Assembly (NCBI RefSeq): GCF_032814565.1
Contig: NZ_CP136521.1
Span: forward strand, 744,001 to 808,000
Source of the DNA: Hwangdonia lutea
Lineage (GTDB): Bacteria; Bacteroidota; Bacteroidia; Flavobacteriales; Flavobacteriaceae
Reading direction: 5' to 3'
Length of the DNA stretch: 64,000 nt
This document shows positions 12,713 through 16,717 of this stretch, piece by piece. Within the stretch, counting starts at the first letter, position 1, and each line of letters starts with the position of its first letter. Made by a program: the position numbers and the translations under genes. The notes beneath the pieces are model-generated. The model worked only from the letters and a program-made list of their open reading frames with translations, made no database searches and was not told the origin of the DNA.

Positions 12713-13057
12713 TTAGCTACTAAGTTTAAACAATACATAAGCTGCAATGGCCATAACCAAATCACGTACGGCTACATCTAAATAATGACCGCTAAAAATT
12801 AGGGTCAAGGCAATTAATGCCAGCCATAATGCTACTATTATGGCACCTATTTTGGTTTTAACCAATACAATAATTCCTGCTACAATTTCAATAATTCCAA
12901 CAATAATCATAAAAGTTGAGGCATCAAAAGGCAATAAGTCTTGAAATCCAGAACTTAGGTACTGGCTCCAATCTGTTAAAATATTCGTAAATTTATCTAA
13001 TCCAGCCACAATGGGCACTAAACCAAAGGTATACTTCAGCAATGTTTGTTCATTCAT
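12713..13057 (-). CDS. Small DoxX-like membrane protein
   Basis: A 114-residue protein with about four hydrophobic segments (near residues 5-25, 45-65, 68-88 and 93-112). The pattern FGLVPIVAGLDKF at the start and GIIEIVAGIIVL in the middle resembles small DoxX/DoxD-like proteins that are common in flavobacteria and of unproven function. It is transcribed convergently with the thioesterase and divergently from the sigma factor at 13165. Family assignment is by resemblance only. Confidence 0.65.
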   Translation of the reverse strand: MNEQTLLKYTFGLVPIVAGLDKFTNILTDWSQYLSSGFQDLLPFDASTFMIIVGIIEIVAGIIVLVKTKIGAIIVALWLALIALTLIFSGHYLDVAVRDLVMAIAAYVLFKLSS

Positions 13058-13164
13058 AATATCATTATTTTAGTTATTCTATGCTTTTGATACCTAAACT
13101 TTAAAATAGTTACAAAATTTTGTAACTAATTGTTAGTAAACCCATCTAAAGAAAAAACAAACAC

Positions 13165-13824
13165 ATGAAAGCCATTAAAATAAATGATTATAACAATCAG
13201 ACTATTCATGATTTTGATGTTATTACACAAATTCTGAAAGGAGAAAAAGGCCTGTACGAAATTTTAATGCGAAGAAATAACCAGAAACTATATCGCGTTG
13301 TGCGGAGCTATATTAAGGATGAAAATGTGATAAAAGATATTATGCAGAACACGTATATAAAGGCTTACGAGAAACTTTATCAATTTAATAAAAAATCGGG
13401 GTTTTCAACGTGGTTGATTAGGATAGGAATTAATGAAGCGCTGCACGAATTGAAATCTAATCAGCGTAAAATGCTTATCCACCCAAATACCCAAAACCAT
13501 AAATCGTTTATAGAAGCATCAAAAAACATGAATCCTGAGCATCATATCATTCAAAAAGAAGCCCAATGGATTTTGGAAAAAATAATTGACCAGCTTCCAG
13601 AAAAGTATAAAGTGGTTTACATACTAAGCGAAGTTGAAAACATGAAAATTAAGGATATTAGTGATTGCCTTGATATTTCAATTAACAACGTTAAAGTAAG
13701 AACCCATCGGGCCAAACAAATGCTAAAAGACAATCTTTACGAATTATCGCAAAAACCAAATGTGTTTGAATTTGGGTTTGAAAAATGCGACAATTTGGTA
13801 AAAAATGTAAATAAAAATATTTAA
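13165..13824 (+). CDS. ECF-type RNA polymerase sigma factor
   Basis: A 219-residue sigma-70 family protein. Region 2 is at about residues 25-95 (IKDIMQNTYIKAYEKLYQF, FSTWLIRIGINEALHELK) and region 4 at about 130-190 (LPEKYKVVYILSEVENMKIKD, then the helix-turn-helix ending SINNVKVRTHRAKQML). A ~25-residue tail beyond region 4 is not typical. No anti-sigma gene is adjacent; the next five same-strand genes (OB-fold protein, cupredoxin, barrel, haem lipoprotein, YceI) are closely packed and are the obvious candidates for its target operon, although this is inference from position. Confidence 0.92.
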   Translation: MKAIKINDYNNQTIHDFDVITQILKGEKGLYEILMRRNNQKLYRVVRSYIKDENVIKDIMQNTYIKAYEKLYQFNKKSGFSTWLIRIGINEALHELKSNQRKMLIHPNTQNHKSFIEASKNMNPEHHIIQKEAQWILEKIIDQLPEKYKVVYILSEVENMKIKDISDCLDISINNVKVRTHRAKQMLKDNLYELSQKPNVFEFGFEKCDNLVKNVNKNI

Positions 13825-13858
13825 CCACGACTAAAACTAACATTAACCCTCCACTAAA

Positions 13859-14257
13859 ATGGTTAGTAGCAAAAATAAACGCAATTGGTTTTTATTAATA
13901 GTGCTATTAACTTTATGCGTGTTTGTTGGCTATCAATACATTTATCAAGACCATAGAGATATTGAAACTGAAAAGGCCGAATTCACTACAACACCTCAAA
14001 CTATTAGTGACGAATTTAAGCAAAACGCCCTTAAATCTGAACAAACTTACCTTAATAAAACCATTGAAATCTTAGGTATAGCTACCGAAATCAATAAGAA
14101 CAATATCACCTTAAACCACTTGGTTTTTTGTCAATTCAACGACATTTTAAACCAATCAATAAAAATCAATACTACTGTTAAAGTAAAAGGACGTTGCATA
14201 GGCTATGACGATTTGTTGGAGCAAGTTAAATTAGACCAATGCACCATTATTAATTAA
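13859..14257 (+). CDS. Membrane-anchored OB-fold (tRNA_anti-like) protein
   Basis: A 132-residue protein with one N-terminal membrane segment (residues ~9-26), then a short linker and a beta-rich domain of ~75 residues. The pattern YLNKTIEILGIATEINKNN...VKVKGRCIGYDDLLEQVKLDQCTI is that of the small OB-fold family called tRNA_anti-like, which is seen in periplasmic or lipoprotein contexts in Bacteroidota. A Cys pair (in CQFND and GRCIGYD) plus one in DQCTI is visible. It lies 34 bases after the sigma gene and 14 before the cupredoxin gene. Function unknown; perhaps a structural or redox-linked periplasmic factor. Confidence 0.65.
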   Translation: MVSSKNKRNWFLLIVLLTLCVFVGYQYIYQDHRDIETEKAEFTTTPQTISDEFKQNALKSEQTYLNKTIEILGIATEINKNNITLNHLVFCQFNDILNQSIKINTTVKVKGRCIGYDDLLEQVKLDQCTIIN

Positions 14258-14271
14258 CTAAAACTACAATT

Positions 14272-14844
14272 ATGAAAACAAAACTACTCGCATTAATGTT
14301 TTTAGGAATGTTAAGTGCACATGCTCAAACCACCCATAATCTTAATTGGGAAATTGGAATTGGAACCCTAGATTTAACTATTGATGAAGGTGATACTGTT
14401 ATTTGGACTTGGACGGACGGAGCGCCACACACCGTAACAAGCTTAGCAGGAAGTGCAGAAACTTTTGATAGTGGTTCAAAAACAGGAAACGGAATGACAT
14501 TTTCTAAAACCTTTAATGTTGTTGGTTCAAATCCGTACCAATGTAATTTTCATCCGTCAACCATGAAGGGTACCATAACCGTAGAAGGTGCGCTTAGTGT
14601 AGATGATTTTCGTTTAAAAGGATTTGCAATCCATCCAAACCCAGCAAATACCGTAATTTCGTTTAAACTTCCTAAAGGATTAAATTCGGGCACTATTAGC
14701 GTTTTCGATTTATTGGGCAAACAACTTTATTCAAACACTATAACCAAAACCACTTTGGATATTTCGGGTTTGAACAACGGATTATACGTTGTAAAAATCT
14801 CGTCTGAAGGCATCCATCACACAAAACGTTTTATAAAGCAATAA
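14272..14844 (+). CDS. Plastocyanin-like cupredoxin with T9SS type A sorting domain
   Basis: A signal peptide (residues 1-18, cut near AHAQ) is followed by a ~85-residue blue-copper domain and a C-terminal ~72-residue T9SS type A sorting domain (FAIHPNPANTVISFKLP, ISGLNNGLYVVKI, ending KRFIKQ). Type 1 copper ligands are visible: His53 (APHTV), Cys91, His94 and Met98 (YQCNFHPSTM). The protein should therefore be an electron-transfer copper protein carried across the outer membrane by the type IX system and either anchored at the surface or released. It sits directly before the barrel gene (6-base gap). Cupredoxins on the cell surface are unusual and suggest extracellular or outer-membrane redox work. 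Confidence 0.85.
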   Translation: MKTKLLALMFLGMLSAHAQTTHNLNWEIGIGTLDLTIDEGDTVIWTWTDGAPHTVTSLAGSAETFDSGSKTGNGMTFSKTFNVVGSNPYQCNFHPSTMKGTITVEGALSVDDFRLKGFAIHPNPANTVISFKLPKGLNSGTISVFDLLGKQLYSNTITKTTLDISGLNNGLYVVKISSEGIHHTKRFIKQ

Positions 14845-14850
14845 CAATTT

Positions 14851-15723
14851 ATGAAACTCGTATTTTTCATGCTTTGCTTTCCTTTGATTTGTTTTGCCCA
14901 AGATGATTTATTGGATGAAATTAATACCGATTCAACAGGAACACAATATGCAACCGCTGTGTTTAAAGGATTGAAAATTGTAAATTTTGAATCGACCAAA
15001 CTGGTCGCCAAAAAACAGTTAACCTTTATTGTGGCCCACCGTTTTGGCAGTATTGAAAATGGTTTTGACAGCTTTTTTGGTCTAGACGATGCGGTAACAC
15101 GTTTAAATTTTGTGTACGGTATTTCAAACGGTTTTAATATTGGAGCTTCCAGAAGTTCTTTTCAGAAAATTTACGAGTTTTCAGCAAAATACAGAATACT
15201 GAGACAAACCGAAAATAGTTTTCCTTTTACCGTAATTGGCTATAATTCGTTTTTAATAAACACCGCTTTAGATAAAAAAAATTTGCCCCTTTTAAAGTTT
15301 AAACACCGCTTAGGCTATACTGTTCAATTATTGATATCGAGAAAAATAAACACTGATTTTTCGGTTGAAATAGCACCAACTTTTTTCCATGATAATTTAA
15401 CAGCTTCATTTTATGCTGAAAATCAAGTAAAAATAAGCGAGCAGGACAACTCGCAATTTGCTTTGGGTTTTGGAGGTCGGTATAAACTAGGTAAACGCTG
15501 GTCTCTAAACATGGACTATGGTTGGCATTTGAACAGAGATAATAATTCGCCGTTTAAAAATCCGCTGTCCATAGGTCTGGATTTAGAAACTGGCGGACAT
15601 GTATTTCAAATGCATTTTACCAATGCACAGGGCATGAACACCAATACGTTTTTGGGCCAAGGTACAGGCGATTGGAGCGATGGCAACATTTATTTCGGAT
15701 TTAACCTTAGCAGAGTTTTTTAA
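14851..15723 (+). CDS. DUF5777-type outer-membrane beta-barrel protein
   Basis: A 290-residue protein with a signal peptide (residues ~1-16, ending CFAQD) and alternating hydrophobic strands through its length, ending in an aromatic strand (YFGFNLSRVF), the usual signal for barrel assembly. The stretch FIVAHRFGSIENGFDSFFGL, with its early HRFG motif, and the later GLDLETGGHVFQMHFTNAQ are marks I associate with the DUF5777 family of Bacteroidota. Function is undescribed. It overlaps nothing but is placed between the cupredoxin and the haem lipoprotein genes with 6- and 10-base gaps, so the three probably work together. Confidence 0.8.
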   Translation: MKLVFFMLCFPLICFAQDDLLDEINTDSTGTQYATAVFKGLKIVNFESTKLVAKKQLTFIVAHRFGSIENGFDSFFGLDDAVTRLNFVYGISNGFNIGASRSSFQKIYEFSAKYRILRQTENSFPFTVIGYNSFLINTALDKKNLPLLKFKHRLGYTVQLLISRKINTDFSVEIAPTFFHDNLTASFYAENQVKISEQDNSQFALGFGGRYKLGKRWSLNMDYGWHLNRDNNSPFKNPLSIGLDLETGGHVFQMHFTNAQGMNTNTFLGQGTGDWSDGNIYFGFNLSRVF

Positions 15724-15733
15724 ACCAACAGCT

Positions 15734-16099
15734 ATGAAAAAAGTAATTATAAGTTTAGGTTTAACATCACTCATTTTTTTGGGATGCACCAATACAAGTA
15801 CCGACGACTTGATTGACAAAGAAGCATTACCTAAATTAATTACTTATAATAGTGATGTAAAACCCATTATTGACAACAACTGTATTATGTGCCATAGCAA
15901 TCCGCCGGTAAACGGTGCACCAATTTCCTTAACCACTTATACCGAGGTGAAAAATGCAGTTCAAATCAATGGTTTAATTGGTCGGATTTCAAAACAAGCA
16001 GGAGAAGCTGGAGCCATGCCTTTGGGTGGTCCAAGGTTGCCACAAAACCTAATTGACCAAATTATACAATGGCAAGCTGATGGCTTATTGGAGCAGTAA
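15734..16099 (+). CDS. Mono-haem c-type cytochrome lipoprotein
   Basis: A 121-residue lipoprotein: signal peptide with lipobox LGC at Cys18, followed by a small cytochrome c fold. The haem c site is CIMCH (residues 49-53) and the likely distal ligand is Met94 in AMPLGG. The C-terminal helix LIDQIIQWQADGLLE is the usual last helix of such domains. The reading frame is open upstream to 15680 but the ATG at 15734 gives the clean signal peptide and avoids overlap with the barrel gene. It should carry single electrons at a membrane surface in the periplasm or at the outer membrane. Confidence 0.9.
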   Translation: MKKVIISLGLTSLIFLGCTNTSTDDLIDKEALPKLITYNSDVKPIIDNNCIMCHSNPPVNGAPISLTTYTEVKNAVQINGLIGRISKQAGEAGAMPLGGPRLPQNLIDQIIQWQADGLLEQ

Positions 16100-16131
16100 A
16101 TTTTAAGCAATAACCATGTAATTTTATAGTT

Positions 16132-16680
16132 ATGAAAAACATTTTTTGCATCTTGTTTTTAATTGGTTTTGGCTTGTCTGCGCAAACCAAATACATCACT
16201 AAAACAGGAATGGTTAATTTTGAAGCCTCAGTACCCACTTTTGAAAAAGTTAAAGCAACTCACAACTTAGTTACCGCTATAATAAATACCGATAATGGCG
16301 AATTTGCAGCATTAGCTTTAGTGAAAGGTTTTCGATTTAAAAATGCTTTGATGGAAGAGCATTTTAATGAAAACTATGCGGAATCCGATACGTTTCCAAA
16401 AGCTACTTTTAAAGGAACAATAAAGGATTTTGACATTACCGATTTGAAAACCGAAACCTTGCCTTATACTTTAAAAGGCGAATTGACTTTTCACGGAAAA
16501 ACAAAACACTTTAATGCTTTAAATATATCCATTTTAAAAGATAATAATAAGATTATTTTGTCGGGACATTTTAAAGCAAAAGCATCTGATTTTGATATTG
16601 AAATACCAAAAATAGTGCGGAATAAAATTTCCGAAACCATTGCCGTTTCATTCGAATTTAATATGAAAAAGAAGGAATAA
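16132..16680 (+). CDS. YceI family periplasmic protein
   Basis: A 182-residue protein with a signal peptide (residues ~1-17, ending LSAQT) and the lipocalin-like YceI domain: TKTGMVNFEASVPTFEKVKA, then HFNENYAESDTFPKATFKG and LKGELTFHGKTKHF. Characterised YceI relatives bind polyisoprenoid chains, including ubiquinone-like lipids, in a hydrophobic tunnel. This last gene of the cluster ends at a strong terminator. In context it may carry a quinone or other isoprenoid for the neighbouring redox proteins, but that is inference. Confidence 0.88.
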   Translation: MKNIFCILFLIGFGLSAQTKYITKTGMVNFEASVPTFEKVKATHNLVTAIINTDNGEFAALALVKGFRFKNALMEEHFNENYAESDTFPKATFKGTIKDFDITDLKTETLPYTLKGELTFHGKTKHFNALNISILKDNNKIILSGHFKAKASDFDIEIPKIVRNKISETIAVSFEFNMKKKE

Positions 16681-16707
16681 AAAAAGCCGCTTATTGCGGC
16701 TTTTTTT
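16681..16707. terminator. Bidirectional intrinsic terminator (yceI-like / carB)
   Basis: Perfect stem GCCGC-TTATT-GCGGC flanked by A5 on the left and T7 on the right, so it can act on both strands. It separates the convergent YceI and carB genes. Confidence 0.9.
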
Positions 16708-16717
16708 ATTCAAATTA

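Follow-up and report, generated by a model that had tools for sequence, protein, structure and literature searches.

A DUF5777 barrel with exchangeable redox partners suggests an outer-membrane one-electron transfer module in Bacteroidota

What might a beta-barrel of no assigned function be doing among small proteins that look built to carry single electrons? The question is posed by a 64,000-nucleotide stretch of the Hwangdonia lutea genome (contig NZ_CP136521.1, positions 744,001 to 808,000; hereafter the window), in which the open reading frame (ORF) list shows six genes running together on the + strand at 13165-16680. One of them encodes a member of DUF5777 (PF19089), a family labelled "membrane bound beta barrel domain". 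A first-pass annotation made from the letters alone had proposed that these genes form a sigma-linked outer-membrane redox module, similar in plan to porin-cytochrome conduits. From the gene neighbourhoods of DUF5777 across the Bacteroidota we conclude, with good confidence, that a conserved redox module is built round this barrel. That the window set is a copy of an undescribed Bacteroidota outer-membrane one-electron transfer module is the reading we favour on balance, and that electrons actually cross the outer membrane is a tentative proposal.

The constant part of the set is the barrel gene (14851-15723, +), whose product is a full-length DUF5777 member (E 2.2e-88; 296.1 bits against a cut-off of 23.1, covering positions 1-247 of 247) with its best named relatives in the Flavobacteriaceae. 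Directly after it lies the core carrier, a putative mono-haem c lipoprotein (15734-16099, +) with a lipobox-like Cys and one CxxCH at residue 50; its Pfam cytochrome matches are all sub-threshold, and it is best called a candidate c-type cytochrome. The single haem site had been correctly noted at first pass, and the distal ligand then placed at Met94 moves to Met95, itself a candidate. A YceI family protein of the isoprenoid-binding lipocalin type (16132-16680, +; PF04264, E 2.4e-12), a core member in most families, completes this half of the run. Upstream of the barrel stands a secreted cupredoxin (14272-14844, +; PF00127, Copper-bind, E 8.3e-8) with a type IX secretion system (T9SS) type A sorting domain (PF18962, Por_Secre_tail, E 1.6e-12); its copper ligands H53, C91, H94 and M98 are all present, as first described. 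It is preceded by a membrane-anchored OB-fold protein (13859-14257, +; PF12869, tRNA_anti-like, E 1.5e-10) and by an extracytoplasmic function (ECF) sigma factor (13165-13824, +; Pfam Sigma70_r2 and r4_2), which scores 205.4 bits against NCBIfam NF008888 (cut-off 204) and is accessory, its slot not being conserved. ORFs and Pfam thus agree with the annotation on all six genes and their families. The gaps between them are, in order, 34, 14, 6, 10 and 32 bases, so that the range given earlier (6-35) holds at its lower end and is one base too wide at its upper. The strong terminator said to end the run is a terminator-like hairpin with a 16-pair stem and T runs (16675-16711, listed on the + strand), readable on both strands, at the junction with a convergent gene. 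Profile searches of the whole genome found one DUF5777 gene and five YceI genes, three proteins of the Cytochrom_C_asm family, and SprA of the T9SS (TIGR04189, 2763.6 bits), the sole component of that system searched.

Is this a chance assembly, or does it recur? We searched with the PF19089 profile 296 genomes sampled across the Bacteroidota and 14 control genomes, and found matches in 115 of the former and none of the latter. COX1 was tried as a discriminator between carriers of DUF5777 and other genomes and proved uninformative: it is found in 285 of the 296, and therefore cannot split the two groups. Nine weak DUF5777 rows (E above 1e-8) were left out, and 137 neighbourhoods were fetched, making 138 loci with the window (loci are numbered L here). 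Four were dropped (L055, L085, L122, L166) because our gene caller, a simple longest-ORF script, had failed to call their barrel ORF; a haem protein and YceI can be seen at L055 and L085. The 134 analysed loci come from 108 genomes, 24 families and 61 genera, and include paralogues and related genomes. A second set comprised 80 named loci, the best-scoring among at least 586 confirmed relatives and all of them close ones. In what follows, "redox" counts refer only to families whose profiles took the window and its neighbours as seeds.

The genes do keep company. In the same-strand run, YceI is present at 101 of the 134 loci, a haem c protein of the window family at 91, any recognised redox protein at 105, and YceI together with a redox protein at 88. 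Within five genes of the barrel the figures are 113 for YceI, 117 for a redox protein and 129 for either; this last count misses the fusion at L167 described below, which brings it to 130, and two of the four loci that have neither partner (L042, L156) lie on contigs of at most 5.6 kb. Of the named loci, all 80 have YceI within five genes, and 75 have a redox protein there. Thus the outcome that the first-pass annotation had named as telling against it, conservation of the genes separately and not together, is not what we see: barrel, YceI and a one-electron carrier are co-located in most of the 134 neighbourhoods. The cupredoxin-T9SS gene, which the first-pass annotation had listed among the genes to look for together, does not share in this constancy, being in the run at 7 of the 134 loci and 16 of the 80 named ones. 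The OB-fold protein is a frequent partner in the Flavobacteriaceae (30 of 134 runs, 71 of 80 named loci).

One might suppose that these are unrelated envelope genes held in one transcription unit by co-regulation alone, and the variability of the sigma type, the OB protein, the T9SS cargo and the gene order would suit such a view. The distances argue otherwise. Among the 531 genes at most two places from the barrel, 120 encode redox proteins and 111 encode YceI; among the 578 genes six or more places away the figures are 1 and 2. YceI is thus about 60 times, and the redox families more than 100 times, commoner at short range. Since the loci include paralogues and related genomes, Fisher values on gene distance are not independent tests. 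A redox protein is near the barrel in 22 of the 24 families, and the count for either partner is likewise 22. We consider co-regulation alone very improbable, and the carrier-barrel fusions found in seven genomes (below) speak against it once more.

If the association is real, what do the partners have in common? The carriers are not always the same protein. A Rieske protein is found in the run at 11 loci from six families, 10 of them having no haem protein in the run, and Pfam directly confirmed the identity of six of these proteins. Three of the seven cupredoxin loci likewise have no haem protein in the run, and di-haem proteins are the partners at six loci. On a FastTree phylogeny of the 134 barrels (two of the rows are long, one of these being a fusion), the Rieske partner requires at least three changes and the cupredoxin four, the cupredoxin loci falling in two far-apart clades. 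The ligands are intact in nearly every case. In the cupredoxins of the loci the first His is present in 24 of 24 and the Cys, second His and Met in 23 of 24, the exception being a 68-residue fragment; the Rieske motif is intact in 11 of 12; and all 207 haem proteins carry either CX2CH (150) or CX4CH (57), with a downstream M[PGA] in 205. The idea that family members without CxxCH had lost their haem was accordingly ruled out, the 57 having CX4CH instead. Haem c, copper and 2Fe-2S proteins share one-electron transfer, and therefore the constant partners, too, are likely to have a redox function; this is our main argument. As an observation beside the cupredoxins, one protein between two copies of the module in a single run (L197:9111-10334) consists of Lipoprotein_15 repeats followed by what appears by eye to be a cupredoxin-like domain.

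In some genomes carrier and barrel have become one protein. At L167 a single ORF of 411 residues joins a CX4CH domain (44-140, by local profile) to DUF5777 (160-408), Pfam detecting the DUF5777 part only. Searching 99 relatives of this genome, we found the same architecture in seven genomes and confirmed it by translation in L248-L254. A second CX4CH family protein lies close by on the same strand in six of the seven, whereas the remaining locus (L250) runs up to the edge of its contig. YceI is found at none of the six fusion loci scanned (L271 lay outside the scan), two of which are on stretches of at most 8 kb. Two fusion loci, L272 and L273, also have a protein with two CxxCH motifs, of MauG type by Pfam in L272. 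In both (L272:46-8450, and L273) the fusion is the last gene of a run in which NHL-repeat proteins, a CX4CH protein, MbnP, the di-haem protein of MauG type and a molybdopterin oxidoreductase with a Tat-like signal are encoded, with Pfam assignments for L272 only.

YceI is also missing from a second group. Nine barrels form one supported clade of the tree, and none has YceI within five genes; at six of these nine loci NrfD is in the run or near it. At L116 the order by Pfam is an EB_dh protein, a mono-haem lipoprotein, DUF5777, a small protein with a Tat-like start, a 4Fe-4S protein, NrfD, an unassigned protein and a cytochrome c, and the 4Fe-4S and NrfD proteins are present by Pfam at L124 as well. 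NrfD proteins in known complexes swap electrons with quinones. That YceI is lacking at loci with such a quinol unit would agree with YceI acting as a quinone supplier.

The barrel itself was modelled with AlphaFold2 from 70 sequences (predicted local distance difference test score, pLDDT, 86.6; predicted template modelling score, pTM, 0.80), giving 12 strands. Its fold matches are FapF (Z 18.0, root-mean-square deviation (rmsd) 3.6, 207 residues aligned), KdgM (Z 17.7, 2.0, 166), NanC (Z 16.8, 3.2, 190) and the COG4313 channel 4rl8 (Z 16.7, 4.0, 214). By analogy, the predicted barrel would be porin-like and too small to enclose a cytochrome domain. Against sequences in the PDB, the DUF5777 profile found just two designed barrels, at E above 0.5; YceI found nothing at E 0.01, and the haem lipoprotein had no convincing match. 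A weak match of DUF5777 to PF13557 (21.1 bits, cut-off 22) would fit the COG4313 fold match, PF13557 and COG4313 being, as we take it, one family, and is no proof of kinship. Seven residues (H63, F65, H250, F252, G283, F284 and R288) are conserved at 99-100% over the 134 barrels. All but G283 fall, judged by residue alternation (our basis for assigning faces and contacts), on the more apolar face of strands 1, 11 and 12, and these strands should meet at the barrel seam. A patch of two His, one Arg and Phe that apparently faces lipid is not what one would expect of a simple diffusion channel; it might be a binding site for quinone, lipid or a partner protein. Beside the barrel, two small proteins (144 and 196 residues) without a Pfam match directly follow DUF5777 at L240:8921-9966, and proteins of similar size occupy the same place at several Flavobacterium loci.

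The AlphaFold2 model of the window's OB-fold protein (pLDDT 93.7) has an N-terminal helix and an OB-like beta domain, with 3f1z as its best fold match (Z 11.5, rmsd 2.5, 98 aligned). CcmE (1j6q) is also among the matches (Z 9.0, rmsd 2.7, 84 aligned), but OB folds of tRNA synthetases and of the RPA type score equally, so that the matches do not single out a CcmE-like haem chaperone, a role that we considered for this protein. Together with the porin-like fold matches of the barrel, the full ligand sets of the cupredoxins, and the pair of MbnP and MauG-type di-haem protein beside the fusion at L272, this resemblance could be taken to mean that the module handles metals or cofactors, with the barrel importing or exporting copper or haem and the small proteins binding and delivering it. 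We think this quite unlikely. The cofactor varies among haem c, copper and 2Fe-2S as the barrel stays, and what is shared is the redox role; moreover, the annotated neighbours include no metal transporter except a TonB-plug protein at L061, with many neighbours falling outside the annotation.

How, then, might a redox module of this kind work? In the reading we favour, the DUF5777 barrel of 12 strands would be the constant part, with a single-cofactor carrier docking at its periplasmic mouth: usually the mono-haem lipoprotein, and at other loci a cupredoxin, Rieske protein or mono-haem domain fused to the barrel. YceI would couple this carrier to an isoprenoid quinone residing in the outer membrane or the periplasm, a task that in the one barrel clade may fall to the inner-membrane NrfD/4Fe-4S quinol unit in its place. 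Where a redox protein with a T9SS tail is present, as with the cupredoxin here, presumably exported by the T9SS, it would serve as the surface partner. The barrel could then offer a route, through its interior or along it, by which electrons or a small redox compound move between this protein and the carrier in the periplasm.

The surface end of this scheme depends on the T9SS cargo. Redox partners with a T9SS tail comprise the window cupredoxin, a cytochrome (L109) and DOMON-type proteins, the last found by local profile at 20 loci (L060, L203, L212, L218 and L219 among them). All 20 bear the tail, and in all 20 a single Met (beside the start) and a single His are invariant; DOMON domains bind haem through a Met and a His, and these two residues are candidate ligands. 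At L060 the DOMON-type protein adjoins an ankyrin-repeat protein. Near the barrel, 44 of 81 T9SS cargo proteins are redox proteins by profile or haem motif (19 cupredoxins, 19 DOMON-type and 6 by motif only), compared with 1 of 18 further off. Redox cargo near the barrel is thus a tendency, not a rule.

Several observations weigh against the scheme as a whole, or against its outer steps. At 13 of the 101 runs with YceI there is no recognised carrier. The DOMON label comes mostly from the local profile: among seven of these proteins scanned with Pfam, two pass (L218, L219), four fall below the cut-off and that of L100 has no match. The T9SS-tailed CxxCH proteins of L149 and L153 are Temptin_C by Pfam, and that of L237 is Reeler, haem being indicated in all three by motif only. 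In five near relatives (L046, L171, L173, L175, L178) the slot between the OB protein and DUF5777, which the cupredoxin occupies here, is filled by a T9SS protein of no recognised redox domain, two of the five having a weak lamin-tail match. The NrfD association is confined to one clade of the barrel tree and is therefore nearly a single event. A barrel of 12 strands is narrow, and those that it resembles most closely in fold serve transport or export. Finally, six of the conserved residues (H63, F65, H250, F252, F284, R288) are on the apolar, probably lipid-facing side, which suits the binding of lipid or quinone as well as it does electron transfer.

This last point leads to the closest rival explanation, an antioxidant system in which quinol carried by YceI would scavenge lipid peroxyl radicals and be regenerated by the haem, copper or Rieske protein, DUF5777 would give lipid or quinone a way to the outer membrane, and no electrons would leave the cell. 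There is precedent in Burkholderia, where, in the excerpts of PMC9113575 used here, the YceI lipocalin BcnA and the cytochrome b561 LcoA shield membranes against lipid peroxyl radicals, and an isoprenoid such as ubiquinone-8 is said to be bound in most YceI structures. The near-constancy of YceI (113 of 134 loci within five genes), the invariant and probably lipid-facing patch, and an ECF sigma factor in 21 of the 134 runs (the window included) all agree with such a role. The window genome has no match to cytochrome b561 (PF01292) at E 0.001 in a search of the whole genome that was positive in 8 of the 14 controls, and the antioxidant explanation therefore needs a reductant other than b561. 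It also leaves unexplained the redox partners with T9SS tails, the 21 loci that lack YceI within five genes of the barrel (a haem protein lies in or close to the run at 17 of these), and the YceI-free fusions. We judge it rather improbable, and keep electron transfer at the outer membrane as the preferred account.

A wider form of the preferred account is easily imagined. DUF5777 may be a minimal electron conduit of 12 strands, independent of MtrB and Cyc2, that acts in many Bacteroidota as a general gateway between the quinone pool and T9SS-secreted surface redox proteins; the carriers (haem c, copper, 2Fe-2S, DOMON-type) would be interchangeable cassettes, and the His/Arg/Phe patch at the seam would bind quinone supplied by YceI. 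We offer this extension as a doubtful one.

The sigma factor, by contrast with the barrel and its partners, seems to belong to local history, and as a core member it was rejected. Divergent from it lies a DoxX-like gene (12713-13057, -; sub-threshold by Pfam), which is near the module only here and at L168 and L170 and seems to travel with the sigma gene. The region between the two holds a perfect 20-base palindrome, AGTTACAAAATTTTGTAACT (13108-13127), with one match in the window at up to 3 mismatches where 0.01 is expected; an identical copy lies upstream of the matching sigma gene at L168 and L170, and the palindrome is a possible operator of the sigma/DoxX cassette. Sigma gene, divergent DoxX and palindrome occur together only in the window, L168 and L170 among the 218 loci examined in all, and these two account for both of the sigma genes in the 80 named runs. 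"Sigma-linked", the phrase of the first-pass annotation, therefore describes a local cassette and does not extend to the module. Elsewhere the run has other ECF genes or none: L061 has an ECF gene with FecR and the TonB-plug protein, and at L110, L121, L125 and L127 a short ECF sigma is followed by an anti-sigma-like protein of 413-452 residues ending in an OMP barrel domain (Pfam for L121 only).

How bacteria with multihaem conduits or Cyc2 exchange electrons at their surface is well documented. If our reading is true, 115 of the 296 sampled Bacteroidota genomes, and many named flavobacteria, have in their outer membrane a redox module that is small and cheap and that a screen for multihaem proteins would not pick up. 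It provides a first functional hypothesis for DUF5777, with its 586 relatives or more, and gives YceI a defined partner; the question can be tested with two-gene constructs or, using the fusions, single-gene ones. In the open-licence PMC literature that we searched, no paper names "DUF5777" or "PF19089", and titles and abstract openings held no description of a YceI/cytochrome/barrel or surface-electron module in Bacteroidota. An iron study in Riemerella includes a YceI gene in its expression table, which we could not tie to the DUF5777 module. The partners described here are thus new to the family, as far as the papers searched show.

How does this plan compare with systems already known? Cyc2, according to the excerpts of PMC8406198, is an iron oxidase with a mono-haem domain N-terminal to an outer-membrane barrel of 16 predicted strands. 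The DUF5777 fusions share with it the order of a mono-haem c domain followed by a barrel, a likeness of architecture. They differ in having 12 predicted strands and CX4CH, in place of the 16 strands and CXXCH of Cyc2, and carrier and barrel are separate genes in the window and most genomes. The porin-cytochrome conduits such as MtrCAB resemble our proposal in their plan of periplasmic carrier, barrel and surface redox protein, as the first-pass annotation had suggested. The same excerpts give MtrCAB a barrel of 26 strands that holds a decahaem cytochrome, whereas here the predicted strands number 12 and the carriers bear single cofactors; a cytochrome held as in MtrB is therefore unlikely, and a periplasmic plug of the Cyc2 kind is nearer. 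In pairing YceI with a redox protein the module is also like BcnA-LcoA, for which natural fusions are reported in the excerpts of PMC9113575. LcoA is there a membrane cytochrome b561, a family without a PF01292 match in the window genome, and those excerpts name no outer-membrane barrel as part of BcnA-LcoA. Cbp2D and Cbp2E provide a fourth comparison: in the parts of PMC8981238 consulted, Cbp2D of Cellvibrio japonicus joins a YceI-like quinone-binding domain to two mono-haem domains, one of which, X183, reduces lytic polysaccharide monooxygenases. The YceI-like domain and, in Cbp2D, its union with mono-haem domains are common ground; the Cbp2 proteins are, as described there, multidomain secreted proteins with a carbohydrate-binding module and no barrel. 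An outer-membrane redox plan is thus common to Cyc2 and the porin-cytochrome conduits, and what is new here, as far as we found, is a barrel of 12 predicted strands served by interchangeable carriers of a single cofactor.

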